From: Bacteroidales bacterium
Lineage (GTDB): Bacteria > Bacteroidota > Bacteroidia > Bacteroidales > WCHB1-69
Assembly (NCBI GenBank): GCA_017994425.1
Contig: JAGOKS010000021.1
Span: 1 to 33,127 of the forward strand
Direction: 5' to 3'
Length of the DNA stretch: 33,127 nt
Shown here: in pieces, positions 14,676 to 25,208 of the stretch
Layout of the letters: the number at the start of each line of letters is the position of its first letter
How positions within the stretch are numbered: position 1 is the stretch's first letter
Made by a program: the position numbers and the translations under genes
The notes under the pieces: generated by a model
The model's input: the letters and a program-made list of their open reading frames with translations, nothing else
Databases searched by the model: none
Told to the model about the DNA's origin: nothing

Positions 14676-15878
14676 ATGAATACTATCATTGAACAAATAA
14701 AACATCTGTCTTCGACCTACTTTTTGGAAACCATAAAATTAAGAAGGCTTATTCATCAATATCCCGAATTATCCGAACATGAATTTGTAACGGCACGTTA
14801 TATTTGCAACACTCTAAAATCTTTCGGAATTAAATCGGAATTGCTGTTAAACAATACGGCAGTTACAGCAACTATTGAAGGGAATGGTTCAAGTAAGACT
14901 GTATTAGGCTTACGAGCTGAAACGGATGCACTTCCAATTGAAGAAAAAGGTGATAAGTCTTATATTTCTACTAATAAAGGTATTATGCATGCATGCGGTC
15001 ACGATGCACACACCGCTTCACTGCTAACAACGGCAAGAATATTAACTTTAATGAAAGATCAATGGGGAGGAATCGTTAAATTATTTTTTCAGCCTTCAGA
15101 GGAGAAATATCCCGGTGGAGCCATTCGTATGATTAATGCCGGTGTATTGGAAAATCCCAAAGTGGATATGATGTTAGCCATGCATGTTTCGCCTGAAATT
15201 GAAATCGGTAAAATTGGTATCAAAGCAGACAATTTTATGGCTTCAACCGATGAAATATATGTAAACATTATAGGCAAAGGAGGACATGCCGCACTTACCC
15301 ATTCATACGTCAATCCTATTTACATTGCCGCCAATAGCATCACTGAATTAGATACAATTTTTAAAGCCAATGCCCCCGAAGAATTTCCATCTGTTCTTAC
15401 TTTTGGGCGTTTTGTTGGTGAAGGTAAAACAAACATTGTTCCTGACGAAACTCATTTGGAAGGCACTTTGCGTACCTTTGATGAAGAATGGAGAAAAAAT
15501 GCTCATAAATTAATCAAAAAAACCTTTACTAAAATTGCAAAAGAACACAAAGGAGAAGCCATCGTTCATATTGCCAACGGCTATCCCGTATTAATCAATA
15601 ATCCGGAAATAGCAAGTTTGTGTGAAAGCTATGCGAATGAATTTTTAGGCTCAGGGAATGTACTTCCCTTACAATATCGTATGACCAGTGATGACTTTGC
15701 TTCTTTCTCGCATGAAGTACCCTCATTAATGTATCGATTGGGAGTTAAAATAGAAGACAAAGAACTGAATCTGCATGCTGCAGATTTTGATATCAATGAG
15801 AAAGCATTGGAATTGTCTCCCGGATTAATGGCTTATATGGCTGTTAACTTATTAAACAATATAAAGATAAATGAGTAA
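14676..15878 (+). CDS. M20-family metallopeptidase / N-acyl-amino-acid amidohydrolase
   Basis: A 400-residue M20D-type enzyme, which hydrolyses an amide such as an N-acyl amino acid or acyl-peptide using two metals. Visible motifs are LRAETDALPIEE (metal and catalytic Asp), MHACGHDAHTASLL (Cys and His ligands), FQPSEEKYPGGA (catalytic Glu pair), the dimerisation insert starting GKGGHAALTHS, and a C-terminal MTSDDFASFSHEVPS segment with a final His ligand in LNLHAADFD. The N-terminus shows no signal peptide, so it is likely cytoplasmic. It is the first gene of the seven-gene operon and overlaps the MurD-like gene by 8 bases. In this context it could release a fatty acid or an amino acid for the acid-activating enzymes downstream; that link is inference. 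Confidence 0.88.
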   Translation: MNTIIEQIKHLSSTYFLETIKLRRLIHQYPELSEHEFVTARYICNTLKSFGIKSELLLNNTAVTATIEGNGSSKTVLGLRAETDALPIEEKGDKSYISTNKGIMHACGHDAHTASLLTTARILTLMKDQWGGIVKLFFQPSEEKYPGGAIRMINAGVLENPKVDMMLAMHVSPEIEIGKIGIKADNFMASTDEIYVNIIGKGGHAALTHSYVNPIYIAANSITELDTIFKANAPEEFPSVLTFGRFVGEGKTNIVPDETHLEGTLRTFDEEWRKNAHKLIKKTFTKIAKEHKGEAIVHIANGYPVLINNPEIASLCESYANEFLGSGNVLPLQYRMTSDDFASFSHEVPSLMYRLGVKIEDKELNLHAADFDINEKALELSPGLMAYMAVNLLNNIKINE

Positions 15879-17247
15879 ATCTATCATTCTTTCCCGATTA
15901 CAAGGAAAACACATCCTTATTTTAGGATATGGCCGGGAAGGAAAATCAACATATAATTTTATCAAACAACATCTTCCAAAAGCAAAAGTTACCATCGCCG
16001 ATGCCAATCCCCATTTAGATATCACAGAAATTAAAAACTATAATGATGCGTATATTTTAGGTGAAAATTATTTGGATACTATCTCTGCTTATGACCTCAT
16101 TATTAAATCACCCGGTATTAGTTTAAAAAATCATCTCTCATTCATTCAAAGAGACATCATTAGCTCTCAAACCGATTTATTCTTACAAGCATATGCTAAT
16201 CAATGTATAGGCGTTAGTGGCACCAAAGGAAAAAGTACTACTTCCAGTTTGATTTATCACATTTTACAATCATTAAATATTCCTTCCCTCTTGGCAGGAA
16301 ATATAGGCATCCCTTTGTTTGACATTATTCCATTAATCCATAAAGAAGTAAAAATTGTGATGGAACTATCTTCCCATCAATTGGAATTTATCCAACAAGC
16401 ACCGTCAACAGCCATCCTTTTGAATATATTTCAAGAACATTTGGATCACTATCTTGGTTTTGAAGCGTATCAGCAAGCAAAATATGCGCTTGCCCGTTAT
16501 CAACAAAAGAATGATACATTCATTTACAATACCGATGATATACTGATTAAAAAATTATTGCAACATTCACCCCCTCAATCTAACCTCTTAGGTTTTTCCT
16601 TTGCCTCATCTACTTCTTCAGCTTGCTATATCCGAAATTATTCCTTTATGTATAAAAACAATGATAAAGAAGAGAAAATCATGGATATCGTTACAAACGA
16701 CTTTCCACTGAAAGGCAAGCACAACCTGGCAAATAGCTGCGCTGCACTACTTGCCGTTCTACCATTTATTCCCGCTGAAAAACGTAAGGAATTAAAAAAT
16801 GCCGTTTATTCTTTTCAGAGCCTAGCGCATCGTTTGGAATTTGTTGCTACAATAGATGATGTAAGCTATTACAATGACAGCATCTCAACGATTCCTCAAG
16901 CCACAATTGCTGCTCTGGAAGCCATCGATAATGTGAACACTTTAATTCTCGGAGGTATGGATAGAGGTATCGATTATATGCCCATGAAAAGTGTTTTTTG
17001 CGATTCACAAGTGGAAAATTTTATTTTTACCGGAAAAGCAGGAGAACGTATGATGCATTTGTGTCAAGCATTTTCTAACAAAAAGACTTTTTTCTCAAAT
17101 GATTATACGGAAATCATAGTCATTGCCAAACGTGTAACACGGAAACATCATGTATGTTTGTTATCCCCTGCTGCCTCCAGCTATGATGCATTTACAAACT
17201 TTGAACACAGAGGCAATGTTTACAAAGAATTAATAAAAAACACTTAA
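15871..17247 (+). CDS. MurD-like UDP-N-acetylmuramoyl-alanine--glutamate ligase, divergent
   Basis: A 458-residue Mur ligase with all three domains: an N-terminal Rossmann-like domain (ILGYGREGKST), a central ATP domain with P-loop GTKGKSTT (117-124), MELSSHQLEF and KGKHNLAN (281-288), and a C-terminal domain. It resembles MurD, but the C-terminal substrate pocket differs: where typical MurD has a DSKATN-like motif this has NDSISTIP (335-342), and GGMDRGIDY (361-369) carries Arg rather than the usual Lys. These changes recall the MurD2 type reported to add L-Glu, though I cannot align them here. It is far from a division/cell-wall gene cluster and overlaps the M20 gene by 8 bases. It may be a second MurD or an amino-acid ligase for another product. 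Confidence 0.8.
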   Translation: MSKSIILSRLQGKHILILGYGREGKSTYNFIKQHLPKAKVTIADANPHLDITEIKNYNDAYILGENYLDTISAYDLIIKSPGISLKNHLSFIQRDIISSQTDLFLQAYANQCIGVSGTKGKSTTSSLIYHILQSLNIPSLLAGNIGIPLFDIIPLIHKEVKIVMELSSHQLEFIQQAPSTAILLNIFQEHLDHYLGFEAYQQAKYALARYQQKNDTFIYNTDDILIKKLLQHSPPQSNLLGFSFASSTSSACYIRNYSFMYKNNDKEEKIMDIVTNDFPLKGKHNLANSCAALLAVLPFIPAEKRKELKNAVYSFQSLAHRLEFVATIDDVSYYNDSISTIPQATIAALEAIDNVNTLILGGMDRGIDYMPMKSVFCDSQVENFIFTGKAGERMMHLCQAFSNKKTFFSNDYTEIIVIAKRVTRKHHVCLLSPAASSYDAFTNFEHRGNVYKELIKNT

Positions 17248-17257
17248 GCATTACTGA

Positions 17258-18391
17258 ATGAAAGCATCTGCTATCAACACTTTATGTAATTTACAAGACC
17301 CATATTTTCACAGTACTGAACGTGACAAACTATTTGTCGATGCCATCAAAGAGAACTATGATATACAATATAAAAAACAAGCGTTTATACGCTATTTAGC
17401 ATCACAACGCGGTTTTAATATCAAAGAAGTAAACACCATTGACGACTTGGCTAAAATACCTCCCCTTTTTGTCGGTATTATGAAAATTCATTCTTTCTGC
17501 AATGTAGAAGAGAAAGACATCAAAATGGTATTGACAAGTTCGGGGACTAAAGGACAGAAAACCCAATCTTTTTTTGATGCAGACTCTTTAGAAAGACTCT
17601 CGAAACTTGCTCTTAACTGCTTCCATGCAGGAGGATGGACTTCGGATATCCCCGCTCATTTCTTTGTTATGGGATACGATATCACTGCTGCCACCGATTT
17701 GGGAACTTCGTGGAGCAACAACCAGTTATTGTCATTAGCCCCTAACAAGAGTGTACATTGGACTATTCTAAAAAACGAACAAGGCGAATTTGTTTTTGAT
17801 TATACCTTCTGGGCAAAGAAAATCATTGAATTAAGTGAAGACGCTCCCATACGACTTACAGGCTTTCCTGCTTTTATGTGCCAAATAGCCTATGAAATAC
17901 AACGCATTAAACCCAATTTCAAAGTAAAAGAAGGTAGTTTTATTACTGCAGGTGGTGGTTGGAAAAATCACAAAGGGAATGTACTCACCCATAAAGAATT
18001 TGGCGATCTTATGGAAAAGACCATGGGTATAACACCCACATGCATACGCGATATTTTCGGCATGGCAGAACATGGCATTCCTTATTGCTCGTGCAGTGCA
18101 GGTAATTATCACATCCCCATTTATTCCCGTTTACTTATCAGGGACCCTTTGTCCTTACAAACACTTGCCGATAATGAAGAAGGATTGATGAATTTAATAT
18201 CTCCTTATAACCTAACCCAACCTAATTTATCGGTACTAGCTACCGACTTGGCAGTCGTAAAAGATAATTGTCCCTGCGGTATTCAAGGTAAATACATTGC
18301 CTCTATCCGCAGAGGAGGCATATCCAAAAACAGAGGTTGTGCCATTGCAGCACAAGAAATATTAACTAAATCACAAGGAGGTAAAGGATGA
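17258..18391 (+). CDS. LuxE-like acyl-protein synthetase
   Basis: A 377-residue member of the LuxE family. In luminous bacteria LuxE adenylates a fatty acid and moves the acyl group to its own Cys near the C-terminus before passing it to the LuxC reductase. The AMP-forming loop LTSSGTKGQKT (92-102) is intact, as is the segment GFPAFMCQI, and a Gly-Cys pair sits at Cys361, 16 residues from the end, matching the place of the acylated Cys in LuxE. Length is normal. A further CPC (338-340) and CSC (277-279) could bind metal. It starts 10 bases after the MurD-like stop and overlaps the LuxC fusion by 4 bases. No luciferase genes are present, so the acyl group has another fate. Confidence 0.82.
   Translation: MKASAINTLCNLQDPYFHSTERDKLFVDAIKENYDIQYKKQAFIRYLASQRGFNIKEVNTIDDLAKIPPLFVGIMKIHSFCNVEEKDIKMVLTSSGTKGQKTQSFFDADSLERLSKLALNCFHAGGWTSDIPAHFFVMGYDITAATDLGTSWSNNQLLSLAPNKSVHWTILKNEQGEFVFDYTFWAKKIIELSEDAPIRLTGFPAFMCQIAYEIQRIKPNFKVKEGSFITAGGGWKNHKGNVLTHKEFGDLMEKTMGITPTCIRDIFGMAEHGIPYCSCSAGNYHIPIYSRLLIRDPLSLQTLADNEEGLMNLISPYNLTQPNLSVLATDLAVVKDNCPCGIQGKYIASIRRGGISKNRGCAIAAQEILTKSQGGKG
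18376..18381 (+). promoter_or_regulatory. Perfect Shine-Dalgarno sequence before the LuxC fusion gene
   Basis: AGGAGG lies 6 bases before the ATG at 18388, inside the last codons of the LuxE-like gene. Almost no other gene start in this window has such a sequence. With the ATGA overlap it suggests strong coupled re-initiation. Confidence 0.7.
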
Positions 18392-21006
18392 GTCGTACCC
18401 ATTATCTGTTCGGAAACAAAATCGAAAGCGAAGAACTTAACATAGCGGTAGCGTTGGAGTATTTTTCTCAAGAAAAGCTCAATGACTTATCCAAACGTTT
18501 TATGCAAATTCCTTTGGAAAACATATTAAATGTATTAGAAAAAACCGGTCTTTACATGTATGATAAAGAGAAGCCCTATTACAAACAATGTATGGAGTCA
18601 TTGCCTCACATGTTACATTACGCTCCTAAGATGGTAGAAAAAGGATTGTCGTTTATTCCTTCCCTTCTTAGTCGTAAGACCATGTTAGACCGATTATCCC
18701 ACTTAGGCAATCATCATGCCCTCGATTATCCGGTTTATAGTGGCAAAGGTCAGTTAAAAAGAGCCGTACCCACCGGTATTGTTTGCCACCTGGCTGCCGG
18801 CAACACTTTTCTGGGTGCCATTGACTCCCTTTTATATGGGGTGATAACAAAGAATATTAATATTGTAAAAATGTCAGCAAACGATTGTTTCTTCCCCATA
18901 GTATTCATGGAAGCTCTGCGAGAAGCAGATACTGACAATATTATATTCCCGTACATCACAATGACTTATTGGAAATCAAGCAACGAAAGCATCGCAGAGT
19001 TGGTTAAAAATACTGCCGATATCATTTTATTGTTTGGAGGAGAAGAAGCTGTTAAATCGGTAAAGAAAGAAATAGCCCCAAAATGCGAAGTGATAGCCTT
19101 TGGTCCTAAAACCAGTTTCGGAATTGTAAGTGCGGAACTTAGCCAAGATGAGCTTTCATTAGCAGCCAAGGGCTTTGCTACCGACATTGTTTTTTGGGAA
19201 CAACGTGCCTGTACCGCTTGCCAGAACATTTTTATCGAAAAATCGGAAAACACCGATTACTTTTTACAAGCTCTCTTTTCAGCCTTGGAAGAAACCGGAA
19301 TTACTTTTCCTCAAGAAACTGTCAACACAGATGCTGCCGTGGAAATCCGTAAGCAAAGAGAAATCGCTCTATGGGAACAATTTACCGGCAACGGACAAGT
19401 CATGGAAGGCACAACATCAAACCACAGTATCCTAGTAAAATACAGCAATTACATCAGTGATTCACCTTTAGAAAGAACCGTAATTGTAAATATTGTTAAT
19501 GCTTGGAAAGACATATTAAACGCTTCCGTGCCGGCATTAAAATATTATATGTCTACCGTTTCCATTGCTTCCAAACACAAACAAGAAATCATGAATACCT
19601 TGATACCTTTTGGCGTGATGCGATTTTGCTCTCCCGGATTGATGTCTTCATCAGCGAGCGCTTCTTACTCTCACGATGGCAAATACATTGTAGAATCACT
19701 TATCCGTTTTATAAACTTTGAAGATTTCAACGATGCACATATCGGCCTTGACTTTATGTCTGAAAAAGAGAAAGAACCAATACTACTCAGTCGGATAAAT
19801 ACTGTTTTAAGTCAAGCCATACAAACCCCTTTTTATAAACAGAAATATACCGGCATTGATTTACCACTTAAGAATTTTCAAGAATTTCAACAACTTAATC
19901 CTTTAACAAAAGAAGAAATGGCAAGCATAAGTGCTCATCATTCCGATGCTGCTTTTACCGCTGCTGACAATCATTGCTATCTCTTTTCCGCAGGCGGAAG
20001 TACCGGTTTAAAAAAATATGTCTTGTATTCAGCCGATGAATTTTCAAAGTCCAAAGAACTCTTTGGCAAAGGATTCAGAGCTTTAGGAATTAAAAAACAG
20101 AATGTTGTTGCCAATCTTTTCCCATGTGGCGCCTTATATACAGCATTTTTGGCCATCAACAAAGGATTGGAAGAAACAGAATGTAAAATTATATCGTTAA
20201 CCGGAAATATTTCACACAAAGACACCTTGGAATATTTCACCATGTGTAAACCTGATACCATTTTTGGATTGCCTTCCCTATTGATACCCTTGGCTCAATA
20301 TGCGGAACAAAATAATTACCGTTTCCAACTTGAAAATATTATTTACGCTGCCGAGCACATGACTGCTGATGCAAAAAAATACTTACAAGCTGTTTTTCAT
20401 GCTAAAAAAATCTCTTCTTTCGGCTATGCTGCCGTTGAAACAGGTCCTATCGGATACCAATGTAACTGCTGTAAAGACAATGAATTTCACGTAGAAGAAG
20501 AATGGGCATACTTGGAATCGGATGAAAATAACGAAGCACTGGTAAGCTGTTTGCACAAAAGCCTTCAACCCATCATCAGATACAAAGTCGGCGATTGCAT
20601 TGAATTCATTCACGAAACCTGCAAGTGTGGCAGATTAAGCCCTAAGTTCCGTCTATTAGGACGAAGCGGAGAGAAAATAAGAATATCAGGGTATAGCGAA
20701 ATTTATTTTGAAGAAATTGAAAAAACAACACAATCTATCGTTAAAGACGGGTTTGTTATCCAATTACTACTGGACCCCTATGGATTGTATACCCAATTGC
20801 GTTTAAATGTAGAAACCGGCTCTTGGAAAGATACCCTATTGAAAGAAAAACTTTATCATGGATTTTTAAACAAAATACCTGTATTACAATTACCAAAAGA
20901 AAAAAATATGATTTCGCAATTTGAAGTCTTTCTTCTAGAACCCTACACACTTCCCAGAGTAGAACGCAGTGGTAAAGTAAGACGTATCATTGACAATCGC
21001 ATTTAA
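18388..21006 (+). CDS. LuxC-like acyl reductase fused to a PaaK/CapK-like adenylating domain
   Basis: An 872-residue two-domain protein. Residues 1 to about 450 match LuxC, the NADPH-dependent acyl reductase: nucleotide-binding segment CHLAAGNTFLGAIDSLLYG (133-151) with NIVKMS after it, and FWEQRACTACQNIF (269-282) with Cys275 as the likely acyl-accepting Cys. Residues from about 455 match the phenylacetate-CoA ligase/CapK branch of adenylate-forming enzymes: RINTVLSQAIQTPFYKQKY, AMP loop FSAGGSTGLKKY (533-544), YAAVETGPIGYQC, the cysteine pairs CNCC and CKCG, and RSGEKIRISGYSEI. One polypeptide may therefore activate a carboxylic acid and reduce an acyl group to aldehyde. It overlaps the LuxE gene by 4 bases and has a perfect Shine-Dalgarno sequence. 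The substrate is unknown. Confidence 0.82.
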   Translation: MSRTHYLFGNKIESEELNIAVALEYFSQEKLNDLSKRFMQIPLENILNVLEKTGLYMYDKEKPYYKQCMESLPHMLHYAPKMVEKGLSFIPSLLSRKTMLDRLSHLGNHHALDYPVYSGKGQLKRAVPTGIVCHLAAGNTFLGAIDSLLYGVITKNINIVKMSANDCFFPIVFMEALREADTDNIIFPYITMTYWKSSNESIAELVKNTADIILLFGGEEAVKSVKKEIAPKCEVIAFGPKTSFGIVSAELSQDELSLAAKGFATDIVFWEQRACTACQNIFIEKSENTDYFLQALFSALEETGITFPQETVNTDAAVEIRKQREIALWEQFTGNGQVMEGTTSNHSILVKYSNYISDSPLERTVIVNIVNAWKDILNASVPALKYYMSTVSIASKHKQEIMNTLIPFGVMRFCSPGLMSSSASASYSHDGKYIVESLIRFINFEDFNDAHIGLDFMSEKEKEPILLSRINTVLSQAIQTPFYKQKYTGIDLPLKNFQEFQQLNPLTKEEMASISAHHSDAAFTAADNHCYLFSAGGSTGLKKYVLYSADEFSKSKELFGKGFRALGIKKQNVVANLFPCGALYTAFLAINKGLEETECKIISLTGNISHKDTLEYFTMCKPDTIFGLPSLLIPLAQYAEQNNYRFQLENIIYAAEHMTADAKKYLQAVFHAKKISSFGYAAVETGPIGYQCNCCKDNEFHVEEEWAYLESDENNEALVSCLHKSLQPIIRYKVGDCIEFIHETCKCGRLSPKFRLLGRSGEKIRISGYSEIYFEEIEKTTQSIVKDGFVIQLLLDPYGLYTQLRLNVETGSWKDTLLKEKLYHGFLNKIPVLQLPKEKNMISQFEVFLLEPYTLPRVERSGKVRRIIDNRI

Positions 21007-21017
21007 AAAAAGCTATC

Positions 21018-22520
21018 ATGGAGAACAATTTCATAGATTCGCATACTTTGCAACTTATTATGCCCAATGAAATGAGCATGATTTACCCTATACAACAAAC
21101 AGCGAAAGCTTATGCCGAAATGCTTGGATTTGAAAAGAAAGAATGTTATCATATCGAATTACTATTAGAAGAAATTTTGAGTAATAGTATCATATATGAT
21201 TTTATGCCCGGGCAAAAAGAAAGCATTAACATTACACTAAATAAAACAACACTTGGATTATCTGTAACCATACATTCCAACAGCATCCCTTTGGATATTG
21301 AAAAAATCAAATCATTTTCAAACATCGAAAAAGAAAACATCATCAAACACAATGCTTCCGGTTTAGGCTCCTTGCTTATTAATAAATTAGCCGATAGTGT
21401 TAACTACATCAACAAAGGCAAAGAAGGACAGTTTATTTATTTTGAAAAAAATATTGTAGGAAAAGCATTTACTGAAACACAAAACCTAACAGACTTTGAT
21501 AGCAACATCATTCCAAAGACAGCATTTACTTTTTATGTCAGGCGATTGAAGCCGGAAGAGTCTTTATTTATTTCGCAACTTGCCTATTACGCTTACCGTG
21601 TAAGTTATATTTACGACAAAATATACTATCCTGAATACGTTAAGAAACTAAATGAAGAAGGGGAAATGCTTAGCATAGTAGCCGTCAATAGTGATAACGA
21701 AGAAATCATAGGTCATGTGGCAGCCATCAAACATGAAATTAGCGGATTACCGGAAATGGGAGTAGCTTTTGTCAATCCTCATTACAGAGGCGGTGGCTGT
21801 TTGCAGCAAACTTCGGAATTTCTCATCAATTTGCTTAAAAAAAATAAAACTATAGCTGCCATCGTGCATGCTGTAACAACCCATCCCTATAGTCAGAAAG
21901 CTGCTTATAAATTAAATTTTCGAGAAACAGCAATTTATATATCAAGGGCAACGCCCTTATTAATGAACGAAATCAAAGAAACGAAACTCATTCGTGAAAG
22001 CATGTTGCTGATGTTATTACTACTAAACAATGACAATAAAAAGCAAATATTTGTTCCTGATCACCATGCAAAAATCATCAAAGAGATATTTGCCAATATC
22101 GGACAAAAAATAGAAATCTTACCTGCGAAGCATGAATCATTTAACATAAATGACGAAGCTGTAGTTGAAGTATCAACCGATAGTTACGGCTGTGGCTTTA
22201 TCATCGTAAAAGAATACGGACTAAACATCATTTCTCTGGTTCATAAAACTTTAAAATCACTCTGCGTCAATCGTATTGAAAGCATTTACCTCTATTTACC
22301 CCTCGATAGTTCGGAAGTAAATATGTGTTGTACAGAACTTGAAAAAGCTGAGTTCTTTTTTGGAGGCATCGTATACCACGCCGATGGGCAATATTATCTG
22401 ATGCTCCAATATCTCAACAACCAACAATACGACTATGAAAGCTTGCATGTTTTTTCTGATTTCGCTAAAATGTTAGTAAATTATATCCATCGCCATGACC
22501 CCAATCAGGATATTTCATAA
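21018..22520 (+). CDS. HATPase (RsbW/SpoIIAB-like) fused to a GNAT acetyltransferase
   Basis: A 500-residue cytoplasmic fusion. Residues about 10-145 resemble the anti-sigma-factor histidine-kinase-like ATPase fold, with the N-box LLLEEILSN (48-56) and a G2-type ASGLGSLLINKL (113-124). The G1 box that should read like DNG is SNS (87-89), so ATP binding may be lost. Residues about 170-310 are a GNAT fold with GHVAAIKHE and the acetyl-CoA loop VNPHYRGGGCLQQ (252-264). The last 190 residues are another domain I do not recognise with certainty, containing LYLPLDSSEVN and FFFGGIVYHADGQYY. The gene starts 11 bases after the LuxC fusion and overlaps the next gene by 26 bases. It could bind the STAS protein and gate the acetyltransferase. 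Confidence 0.72.
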   Translation: MENNFIDSHTLQLIMPNEMSMIYPIQQTAKAYAEMLGFEKKECYHIELLLEEILSNSIIYDFMPGQKESINITLNKTTLGLSVTIHSNSIPLDIEKIKSFSNIEKENIIKHNASGLGSLLINKLADSVNYINKGKEGQFIYFEKNIVGKAFTETQNLTDFDSNIIPKTAFTFYVRRLKPEESLFISQLAYYAYRVSYIYDKIYYPEYVKKLNEEGEMLSIVAVNSDNEEIIGHVAAIKHEISGLPEMGVAFVNPHYRGGGCLQQTSEFLINLLKKNKTIAAIVHAVTTHPYSQKAAYKLNFRETAIYISRATPLLMNEIKETKLIRESMLLMLLLLNNDNKKQIFVPDHHAKIIKEIFANIGQKIEILPAKHESFNINDEAVVEVSTDSYGCGFIIVKEYGLNIISLVHKTLKSLCVNRIESIYLYLPLDSSEVNMCCTELEKAEFFFGGIVYHADGQYYLMLQYLNNQQYDYESLHVFSDFAKMLVNYIHRHDPNQDIS

Positions 22521-24867
22521 AAATAAAACTTTTGCTTATTATCTAAGTATATACGTACTTGGCATTGTAATCATTGTATTTACTTTTTTCCTAATTTACA
22601 ATTACAACATATCGCGTAAACTATTATTAAAGAACGTAGAAGAGAATGCACAACACCTCAGCACTTCGGCTGTGAATAAGATTGAAAGTTTTTTCAGTGG
22701 TATAGAAAAAACCACACAACAGGCCGCCTCATTGATAACTCAAATAGATTCCATCGATTATCAAACACATCGCATAGTAAAAGATGTGCTTTTCTCAAAT
22801 CCTGAAATTTACGGCAGTTGTTTTGCTTTCAAACCCTTAGTTTCTAACAGAGATACTATGTTGAATGCTCCGTATTACTATAAAATCAATAATAAATTAT
22901 CATTTAAAAACCTGGCAGACAAAAACTACGATTATATATTGTGGGATTGGTATCGCATTCCTGCCTCAGAGCATAGAAGTGTTTGGTCTGAACCCTACTA
23001 CGATGAGGGCGGTGGCAATGTATTGATGACAACCTATGCTGTTCCCACTTACCGAAAACAAGGAAGTTCTTCCGATTTTTTGGGCGTGCTTACTGCCGAC
23101 GTATCGCTTGATTGGCTAAATGAAATGCTAAACAACATCCATCTCATTGACAATGCGTATGTTTTTTTGATTTCAAATACAGGAAATATTCTTTCGCATC
23201 CCGATTCGACATTCATAATGAATAAAAACATATCGGAATATGTCAAAAAGGAAACCAATTCAAGTTTTCAAACAGTAGTACACCATATGATACTTGGGAA
23301 AAGTGGTTTCGAGAAAATAAGAAAGGATTTTTACAATAATGAAAGTTGGATTTTTTACACACCCCTCGCCAACAAGGCCTGGTCTCTTGGTTTTGTCTTT
23401 CCTGAAGACGAACTTTACGCCGACCTTCATCTCCTACAAAAAGATTTGCTGCTTATCCTTTTATCCGGAATTTTAGTGTTAACATTTTTTATTCTGTTTG
23501 TTTCCACAAAACTCACCAAGCCCATACGCCATTTAGCCGACCTAATGCATAAAGACAGCGAAGCATTTATACATATGCAAATCCCGGATTTTATTTCTAA
23601 TAAAGAAATTAATATGCTGACGAGCTCCTTTCGCAACTTGCAAAATGAACTTAATAAATACATTGCCCATTTAAAAGAAGTTACCATATCGAAAGAACGC
23701 ATTGAAAGTGAATTACAATTGGCAAGCAAAGTACAAATCAGCATGTTGCCTTGCGCTGAAGATGCTGACAGATACAAAAACAAAATCAACATACATGCTT
23801 ATATACACGCCTCGAAAGAAGTAGGTGGCGATTTGTACGATTATTTCTTTTTGGATGATTCCCATTTGTTTTTTGTCATCGGTGATGTTTCGGGCAAAGG
23901 GATGGGAGCTGCCATGTTCATGACCTCTACCCTCACCTTACTAAGAGCTCATGCAAAAATCGCCGGCAATAATCTGTGCCGCATCCTACAACTCACATCC
24001 GACTACTTGGCAGCCAATAATCCGGATAAATATTTTGTTACACTCTTCACAGGTATTTTTAATGTACAAACCCATGAATTAAACTATATCAACGCCGGGC
24101 ACACTTATCCGGTTATACTTAGCGAAAATACGGAAATAATTCTAATGAATCACACCCACATGCTTCCTTTAGGAATTATAAAACCCAAACAATTCATAGC
24201 GTCGCAATGCAAATTACATCCAAACGATACCTTGTTTTTATATACCGATGGCGTTACCGAAGCTATGAATACCAATAATGAATTATTTGGCACTACCTCT
24301 TTACTTGAGATATTAAAAAATTATTCACAACGCAACAAAGACAAACTTATTTCTTCTGTTTGTCAAGCATTGAAAAGCTTTACAACTGCTGCTCCTCAAC
24401 ACGATGATATCAGCATGTTATGTATACAAGTAAAGGAATGTTTAACGGATAAAGCCCTACACCTTTCATTCAAAAATCTACAAGACATATCCATTCTGAA
24501 TGAAATCAATTGCCAAACAGAACATTTTTTAAAAAATAAAGATGTTCCTACTAAAACAATGCATAGAGTTAAACTTGTTATAGAAGAACTTGTTACCAAT
24601 ACCTTTAAATATGGCTTTTTGGATATTGAAAACAAACAACTTGCTATTGACATGAACATTACAAACCAATACATTGAAATCGTTTATAGTGATAATGGAC
24701 AAGAGTTTGACATCTGCAGTTCGATGACAATATCGGTTCAATCCACTGCTAACATTATTACTATCGGGAAAAGAGGACTTTTATTAATAAATAAATTAAC
24801 GGAAGATTTTTGCTACAAACGAGGAAACAACCTAAATATAAGCAGTTTTAAAATACCTATACCTTAA
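22495..24867 (+). CDS. Membrane sensor phosphatase: Cache, HAMP, SpoIIE-type PP2C and C-terminal HATPase
   Basis: A 790-residue protein. A membrane helix (about 13-35), a periplasmic Cache-like sensor (36-317) with DWYRIPASEHRSVWSEPYYD, a second helix (318-337), HAMP (338-390), and a PP2C phosphatase (about 430-648) starting after LQLASKVQISMLP. Catalytic acids are present in VGGDLYDY (443-450), GDVSGKGMGAA (463-473), YTDGVTEA (583-590) and HDDIS (636-640). Residues 655-790 form an RsbW-like ATPase with N-box IEELVTN, G1 box DNG (733-735) and G2 GKRGLLLI (758-765), all intact. An external signal would thus change the phosphorylation of a partner, most simply the STAS protein encoded 5 bases downstream. 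Having phosphatase and putative kinase on one chain is notable. Confidence 0.88.
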   Translation: MTPIRIFHKNKTFAYYLSIYVLGIVIIVFTFFLIYNYNISRKLLLKNVEENAQHLSTSAVNKIESFFSGIEKTTQQAASLITQIDSIDYQTHRIVKDVLFSNPEIYGSCFAFKPLVSNRDTMLNAPYYYKINNKLSFKNLADKNYDYILWDWYRIPASEHRSVWSEPYYDEGGGNVLMTTYAVPTYRKQGSSSDFLGVLTADVSLDWLNEMLNNIHLIDNAYVFLISNTGNILSHPDSTFIMNKNISEYVKKETNSSFQTVVHHMILGKSGFEKIRKDFYNNESWIFYTPLANKAWSLGFVFPEDELYADLHLLQKDLLLILLSGILVLTFFILFVSTKLTKPIRHLADLMHKDSEAFIHMQIPDFISNKEINMLTSSFRNLQNELNKYIAHLKEVTISKERIESELQLASKVQISMLPCAEDADRYKNKINIHAYIHASKEVGGDLYDYFFLDDSHLFFVIGDVSGKGMGAAMFMTSTLTLLRAHAKIAGNNLCRILQLTSDYLAANNPDKYFVTLFTGIFNVQTHELNYINAGHTYPVILSENTEIILMNHTHMLPLGIIKPKQFIASQCKLHPNDTLFLYTDGVTEAMNTNNELFGTTSLLEILKNYSQRNKDKLISSVCQALKSFTTAAPQHDDISMLCIQVKECLTDKALHLSFKNLQDISILNEINCQTEHFLKNKDVPTKTMHRVKLVIEELVTNTFKYGFLDIENKQLAIDMNITNQYIEIVYSDNGQEFDICSSMTISVQSTANIITIGKRGLLLINKLTEDFCYKRGNNLNISSFKIPIP

Positions 24868-24872
24868 TAAAA

Positions 24873-25208
24873 ATGATAGAATACACCTTAGCTCGTACAG
24901 AAAATCCAATAATCATTACACTTAGTGGTCGCTTGGACGCCTTGAATGCCACATCATTTGAAAAAGCAATGGATGATATATTAAGCAAAAAACAGGACCA
25001 TCTTGTTTTTGATTTAGAAAAGCTTGAATACATCAGCAGTGCCGGAATACGTATCTTTTTACTATTGATTCAGAAGTTAGATGCTTCCAATAAACGAATA
25101 GCTATACTCAATCCCTGCGAAATGGTCAAAGAAGTATTTGAAATGAGTGGATTAAAAGAGTATATTCCTATATTACATCATCCTGATGAAGTGAATGAGT
25201 TAAAATAA
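24873..25208 (+). CDS. STAS-domain anti-sigma-factor-antagonist-like protein
   Basis: A 111-residue single-domain protein of the SpoIIAA/RsbV type. The core reads IIITLSGRLDALNATSFEKAM, then LVFDLEKLEYISSAGIRIFLLL; Ser56 in ISSAG is the expected phosphorylated residue. A kinase of the RsbW type would phosphorylate it and a PP2C enzyme would restore it, and both activities are encoded directly upstream. It ends the operon, overlapping tail-to-tail by 9 bases with the BamA-like gene on the other strand. No sigma factor gene is near, so its output is probably a different partner, for example the HATPase-GNAT fusion. Confidence 0.88.
   Translation: MIEYTLARTENPIIITLSGRLDALNATSFEKAMDDILSKKQDHLVFDLEKLEYISSAGIRIFLLLIQKLDASNKRIAILNPCEMVKEVFEMSGLKEYIPILHHPDEVNELK

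Follow-up and report, generated by a model that had tools for sequence, protein, structure and literature searches.

The stretch of DNA analysed here, below called the window, comprises 33,127 nucleotides of contig JAGOKS010000021.1 from a Bacteroidales bacterium (assembly GCA_017994425.1). Its gene of interest lies at 18388–21006 on the forward strand, where a LuxC-type reductase is joined to a PaaK-type adenylating domain of the ANL fold. This LuxC-ANL gene stands in a same-strand series in the order M20, MurD, LuxE, LuxC-ANL, HATPase-GNAT, Cache-SpoIIE-HATPase and STAS (Table 1). As judged from comparison of gene order, the true unit is the five genes from LuxE to STAS (17258–25208), referred to below as the cassette. 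The boundaries of this module, its HATPase-GNAT, SpoIIE and STAS regulators and the occurrence of the cassette across phyla go beyond a first-pass annotation of the same DNA.

The LuxC-ANL fusion and its LuxE neighbour

The first-pass annotation had placed one reading frame of 872 residues at this position, and its coordinates were right: a single frame runs from ATG to stop (872 codons plus the stop), and the log10 probability of 872 open codons arising by chance is about −27 for random sequence of the same composition. It encodes a LuxC reductase with the catalytic Cys275, followed by a PaaK-type ANL domain with intact ATP motifs. The source assembly is fragmented (144 contigs), which might point to an artefact of assembly or annotation, but this explanation deserves practically no credence and was rejected, because the fusion recurs in independent genomes at 95%, 76%, 45%, 43% and lower identity as well as on complete plasmids of two other phyla. 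Two separate genes were ruled out, since the fusion is whole in congener G005 (95% identity) and the fragments in congeners G001 and G003 (76% identity) end only where their contigs end; in G003, the genes downstream follow in the same order as in the window. In a codon comparison with G005, the ratio of nonsynonymous to synonymous substitution rates (dN/dS) was 0.08 in LuxE and the LuxC half alike, 0.11 in the ANL half and 0.12 in HATPase-GNAT, as against 0.15 in the neighbouring MurD, and thus both halves are maintained by purifying selection. At the level of sequence, the fused enzyme is confirmed to be real and intact.

Domain searches recovered LuxC (Pfam, 7XC6_A) and a PaaK-type ANL domain (NCBIfam, 4R1L) in the respective halves. 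PF05893 matched residues 40–440 with 225.6 bits (cut-off 21), covering profile positions 3–400 of 401, and chain A of PDB entry 7XC6 was matched with an E-value of 4e-29. The proposal of a LuxC-like half with Cys275 held, as this residue is invariant in every fused relative compared and in LuxC from a lux operon, together with Q272, H429, D430 and G431. The NCBIfam equivalog for luminescence LuxC was missed (152.7 versus 750 bits), and by these profile scores the LuxC half is a LuxC-family protein and not the bioluminescence enzyme.

In the ANL half (about residues 455–871), the closest NCBIfam models were the PaaK-type DVU_1553 family (E-value 8e-24) and archaeal PaaK (2e-23), both below their equivalog cut-offs, and the phenylacetate-CoA ligase 4R1L was matched in the PDB with an E-value of 7e-18. 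The adenylating loop FSAGGSTGLKKY was found again at residues 533–544 as the P-loop, and it is joined by the A7 residues Y732, G735 and D736, the CxCGR motif at 745–749 and the A10 residue Lys863. All core ANL motifs are present, so the full AMP-forming domain described earlier is not degenerate by its sequence. Across 11 fused proteins, G536, G537, E656, Y732, G735, D736, C745, C747, R759 and K863 are invariant on the ANL side, and the other ANL motif positions are invariant or nearly so. The Pfam AMP-binding model PF00501 gave no match on the fusion at 1e-3. The score against the PaaK equivalog was 68.7 bits with a cut-off of 646.3, and by this measure the ANL half is homologous to PaaK yet not a PaaK. 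The LuxC match stops at residue 440 and the ANL match begins at about 454; no carrier (PCP) domain was matched between the halves, and the gap is too short for one. An AlphaFold2 model of the fusion, built from only three closely related sequences, had a mean predicted local distance difference test score (pLDDT) of 29.6 and was discarded.

The LuxE gene overlaps the start of the fusion by 4 bp. Its product matched PF04443 (128.4 bits, cut-off 24.9) as well as the LuxE chain of 7XC6, and S94, S95, T97, G99 and C361 are invariant over 15 LuxE proteins, one of them from a lux operon, so that the P-loop and the acyl-accepting C-terminal Cys361 are kept in 15 of 15. With an intact LuxE and all core motifs in the fused ANL domain, the earlier claim of two acid-activating domains for one reductase stands for the window; among relatives, the number of ANL-fold activators per operon rises to as many as four.

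Several known enzymes share parts of this arrangement. The LuxC-LuxE fatty acid reductase of bioluminescence (7XC6) likewise has adjacent LuxE and LuxC with the acyl cysteine of the former and the catalytic cysteine of the latter, whereas here an additional C-terminal ANL domain is found on LuxC, and GNAT and partner-switch genes lie in the operon. Neither luciferase LuxA/LuxB nor LuxD was found among the Pfam matches of the window proteins, and the locus is not a lux bioluminescence operon. PaaK phenylacetate-CoA ligases (4R1L and others) have in common the fold family, the P-loop, the A5, A7, A8 and A10 motifs and CxCGR, but the cassette ANLs form a separate clade, and the fused ANL half of the window scores far below the PaaK cut-off. 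Carboxylic acid reductases (CAR) of the order A-PCP-R differ too: here the domain order is reversed, the reductase is of LuxC type and there is no carrier.

Table 1. Genes and domains around the LuxC-ANL fusion, with positions in the window
Feature	Position	Strand	Basis
LuxE acyl-protein synthetase, 377 aa	17258..18391	+	PF04443, 7XC6 LuxE chain, conserved Cys361
LuxC reductase half of the fusion, residues 1–445, catalytic Cys275	18388..19722	+	PF05893, 7XC6_A, invariant residues, dN/dS
PaaK-type ANL adenylating half of the fusion, residues 446–872	19723..21006	+	NCBIfam and PDB matches, motifs, dN/dS
HATPase_c_2 and GNAT acyltransferase, 500 aa	21018..22520	+	HATPase_c_2, Acetyltransf_1 matches
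Cache sensor, SpoIIE (PP2C) phosphatase and HATPase, 790 aa	22495..24867	+	PF07228 (157.6 bits), PF22673, PF02743, PF13581
STAS anti-sigma-factor-antagonist-type protein, 111 aa	24873..25208	+	PF01740 and TIGR00377 above cut-off
M20 amidohydrolase, upstream, outside the cassette	14676..15878	+	PF01546
Full-length MurD, upstream, outside the cassette	15871..17247	+	TIGR01087 (314.9 bits, cut-off 212)

Partner-switch genes and flanking genes

The three downstream genes resemble a partner-switching module. The HATPase-GNAT gene overlaps the SpoIIE gene by 26 bp; in an alignment of its family, HATPase_c_2 was matched in seven of seven members and Acetyltransf_1 in four, and the N-box asparagine is lost in several. 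An AlphaFold2 model from only two sequences reached a pLDDT of 38 and was discarded. The Cache-SpoIIE-HATPase protein has two likely transmembrane segments by hydropathy (about residues 11–40 and 311–341) and intact PP2C catalytic aspartate and HATPase (N-box) motifs, and no other SpoIIE match was found in the assembly, whose completeness is 88.5%. The STAS protein retains the phospho-acceptor serine region YISSAG. In common with partner-switching modules, the SpoIIE PP2C aspartate motifs, the HATPase and the STAS serine region, as predicted from sequence, lie side by side; in contrast to them, the HATPase partner here forms one protein with a GNAT enzyme and no sigma factor gene is present in the operon. 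From this gene set, it is inferred that SpoIIE and STAS would regulate the cassette.

HATPase-GNAT was found near every Bacteroidales LuxC-ANL locus with readable flanks, and a profile search detected full-length copies in about 22 Bacteroidales genomes, most of them without LuxC-ANL. Among 13 such loci lacking the fusion (L089–L101), about half adjoin STAS, SpoIIE or RsbW-like genes. Judging by these neighbourhoods, HATPase-GNAT seems to be an effector of partner switches in general, one of which the cassette makes use. In genome G103, it is split into two overlapping frames (L052:7400-8946), a frameshift or sequencing error.

M20 and MurD were rejected as pathway genes and placed outside the unit, because the M20-MurD pair occurs elsewhere in congener G002 without LuxE or the cassette, and in congener G004 MurD (partial at a contig end) directly adjoins Omp85 with no cassette between. 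The presence of the cassette thus varies within one genus. The block does not stand out by foreign base composition, its GC fraction of 0.34–0.39 being similar to that of the flanks. As a separate observation, the full-length MurD of this genus lies outside the division and cell-wall cluster, in the window and likewise in congeners, and the murD slot between MraY and FtsW (G000:C99:13893-14429, L063) is occupied by no more than a C-terminal fragment of MurD, about 180 aa long.

Distribution of the cassette

A survey of 393 Bacteroidales genomes yielded strong LuxC matches in 15. By reading frame, LuxC-ANL fusions are present in seven of these (the window's own genome, G356, G379, G235, G303, G338 and G103), and G320 has an eighth that is cut at a contig end; three further genomes carry LuxE-LuxC fusions, and the others single LuxC. 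Fusions were found in about 2% of the Bacteroidales genomes sampled. One more, in G022, came from the search for relatives, and a further sample of 396 genomes across the phylum contained no additional fusion. LuxE lies beside the fusion at every fused locus with readable upstream sequence. The LuxE-LuxC fusions (L047:8528-10936, L048:8421-10907 and L050:9811-12282; 800–830 aa, close in length to LuxC-ANL) also bring LuxE and LuxC chemistry into one chain, but they differ in partner and order, fall into a separate LuxC clade (support 99/97) and adjoin classical AMP-binding genes and, in L047, a GT2 gene.

Outside Bacteroidota, relatives covering most of the query were found in plasmid records, where they are carried by Streptomyces plasmids and by two conjugative plasmids of Salmonella. 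Their annotated neighbours include LuxE, GNAT and a standalone PaaK-like ligase, to which an MFS transporter is added in Streptomyces, and in three phyla GNAT genes are found together with ANL genes. The GNAT of the Salmonella cassette aligns with HATPase-GNAT over its GNAT domain and C-terminal portion (probability 98.8); neither the Salmonella nor the Streptomyces GNAT has a HATPase, a part seen here only in Bacteroidales. The Salmonella gene had no near match among Escherichia coli chromosomes and plasmids. Carriage by phages was rejected, as no full-length match occurred in phage records and none in viral contigs, and a role in anti-phage defence was rejected when PADLOC gave no match.

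Relatives have cassettes with one or two additional ANL proteins that stand alone, and an MFS exporter is often present too. At L043 and at L044, the ANL-fold proteins number four, these being LuxE, the fused domain, a ligase of 427–438 aa and a divergent protein of 449–454 aa. The divergent proteins (L043:10515-11879 and L044:5642-6991) were assigned to the ANL fold by reading motifs, and the L043 copy, which was scanned, had no Pfam match. Cassettes of the window genus and of G103 have no standalone ligase. In a tree of ANL domains, from which the two divergent proteins were left out as they did not pass the domain filter, fused and standalone cassette ANLs grouped in a single clade (100/99), and ten general PaaK proteins fell outside it. 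A 687-aa Streptomyces protein (L106:6110-9441, NZ_CP108701.1) with a cassette-type ANL domain adjoins an MFS gene without LuxC and is perhaps a further member of this clade.

A single origin of the fused ANLs received a p-AU of 0.054 in the approximately unbiased test, and the LuxC tree requires three changes. Within the larger clade to which the fused LuxC belongs, three LuxC proteins adjoin LuxE without a fused ANL, one each in Bacteroidales genome G359, on a Chloroflexota plasmid and in Streptomyces europaeiscabiei. On the S. europaeiscabiei plasmid (L103:1658-10116, NZ_CP109155.1), LuxE and LuxC stand beside YcaO, MBL-fold and DUF692 genes, an arrangement suggestive of a modified-peptide cluster in which a carboxyl group is reduced.

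A possible pathway and its alternatives

LuxE makes an acyl-AMP, holds the acyl group on a cysteine and hands it to a cysteine of LuxC, which reduces it to the aldehyde. The conserved catalytic residues of LuxE and LuxC in the cassette are in line with such a transfer. The reading we prefer, at a little less than an even chance, is that the five genes form a discrete cassette that makes a small metabolite, acylated or derived from an aldehyde, and is controlled by a partner switch; LuxE and LuxC would handle one acid, the ANL half a second one, and GNAT would acylate. Each catalytic step is assigned from its enzyme family, on the gene content, motifs, conservation and boundaries established above. 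LuxE would adenylate one acid, by analogy with other LuxE proteins probably a fatty acid, and carry the acyl group on Cys361, from which it would pass to Cys275 of LuxC for NAD(P)H-dependent reduction. A second acid would be adenylated by the fused ANL half and loaded onto CoA or straight onto a nucleophile, and GNAT would acylate either an amine or a lysine of a protein. Cache-SpoIIE-HATPase might read a signal from the periplasm and accordingly set the phosphorylation of STAS, which in turn might act on the HATPase domain fused to GNAT. Substrates, step order, product and the link from STAS to GNAT are speculative.

The first-pass annotation had left a choice between two different acids and a two-step route, for instance through CoA, and its reading of the fusion is partly supported. 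Since LuxC proteins of the same clade occur with LuxE but without ANL, the ANL domain is probably not needed to feed LuxC, which favours a second acid; LuxE looks like the basic feeder and ANL like a dispensable addition with its own job, as far as gene content can tell. The preferred reading is further supported by the intact motifs in LuxE and both halves, by purifying selection (dN/dS of 0.07–0.12), by the retention of LuxE and HATPase-GNAT beside fusions, by the single cassette ANL clade and by the absence of the block in G004. The sole SpoIIE gene of the assembly, the partner-switch genes often found beside HATPase-GNAT elsewhere, and the company of LuxE, GNAT, standalone ANL and (in Streptomyces) an MFS exporter on plasmids point the same way. 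However, several observations weigh against it. The window block has no MFS gene, so that a complete export pathway is not seen there, and neither the block nor the rest of the window genome has a good standalone ANL ligase. In HATPase-GNAT, the HATPase has a degenerate G1 box, the homology of the Streptomyces GNAT to this protein is weak (probability 86), and SpoIIE and STAS adjoin only some LuxC-ANL loci (window genus, L044, L049 and L052). The many genomes with HATPase-GNAT but no LuxC-ANL mean that its role need not be biosynthetic.

A rather unlikely competitor is a self-contained carboxylic acid reductase, in which a single acid is activated by the ANL half and reduced by the LuxC half, LuxE being an alternative or assisting loader. 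This would be a one-chain counterpart of GriC/GriD of grixazone biosynthesis, an AMP-binding activator and a separate aldehyde-forming reductase, of which GriC adenylates and GriD reduces 3-amino-4-hydroxybenzoate (PMC10179220). The direct junction of the halves also favours substrate channelling. The resemblance to GriC/GriD is one of description only: two proteins there correspond to one fusion here, and LuxE does not figure in that part of the account. LuxE with intact cysteine and P-loop always beside the fusion, LuxC relatives that use LuxE without any ANL and the lack of a carrier domain between the halves speak against a single shared acid.

Regulation offers another explanation for the GNAT part. 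Pat and AcuA acetylate the A10 lysine of acetyl-CoA synthetase and thereby switch the enzyme off. HATPase-GNAT could similarly acetylate Lys863 and so turn ANL domains off under partner-switch control, and the invariance of this lysine in fused proteins, the GNAT genes beside ANL genes in three phyla and the fusion of GNAT to a partner-switch domain would fit. In the vicinity of many HATPase-GNAT proteins, however, there is no ANL gene, and we regard this role as unlikely. More improbable still is ordinary lipid metabolism, in which fatty aldehyde or alcohol would go into wax esters or ether lipids. In halophilic archaea, wax ester precursors are provided by an alternative fatty acyl-CoA reductase (PMC11948995), and the single protein ElbD of Myxococcus ether lipid synthesis unites acid-activating CoA-ligase domains with acyl-CoA reductase domains (PMC9131029). 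But ElbD has a FAR1-type reductase with ACS, acyl carrier protein (ACP) and AGPAT domains, whereas LuxC-ANL lacks ACP and AGPAT; no wax synthase, AGPS, acyltransferase (AGPAT) or ACP was found among the window proteins, and sporadic spread with presence and absence inside one genus is ill-suited to membrane housekeeping.

Returning to the metabolite cassette, its compactness and the recurrence of its core, rearranged, in unrelated bacteria suggest an undescribed small-molecule pathway that this lineage has wired to its own signalling switch. We consider it possible, though somewhat doubtful, that such a pathway (LuxE, LuxC-ANL, extra ANL ligases of one clade, GNAT and often an MFS exporter) is common to Bacteroidota, Actinomycetota and plasmids of enterobacteria, with gene transfer as the probable route, and that in Bacteroidales the acyltransferase is under direct partner-switch control through its RsbW-like fusion, an extracellular cue gating an enzyme rather than a sigma factor. 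The parts are known enzyme families, but for their combination no matching system was found in Pfam, NCBIfam, PADLOC or the part of the literature searched. If this reading is true, LuxE, LuxC-ANL and GNAT together would give a genome-mining handle on a metabolite class in Bacteroidales, Streptomyces and conjugative Salmonella plasmids, and the locus would be a testable case in which the target of a partner switch is an enzyme and not a sigma factor. Independently of LuxC-ANL, the loci L089–L101 may belong to a wider family of partner-switch-controlled acyltransferases.

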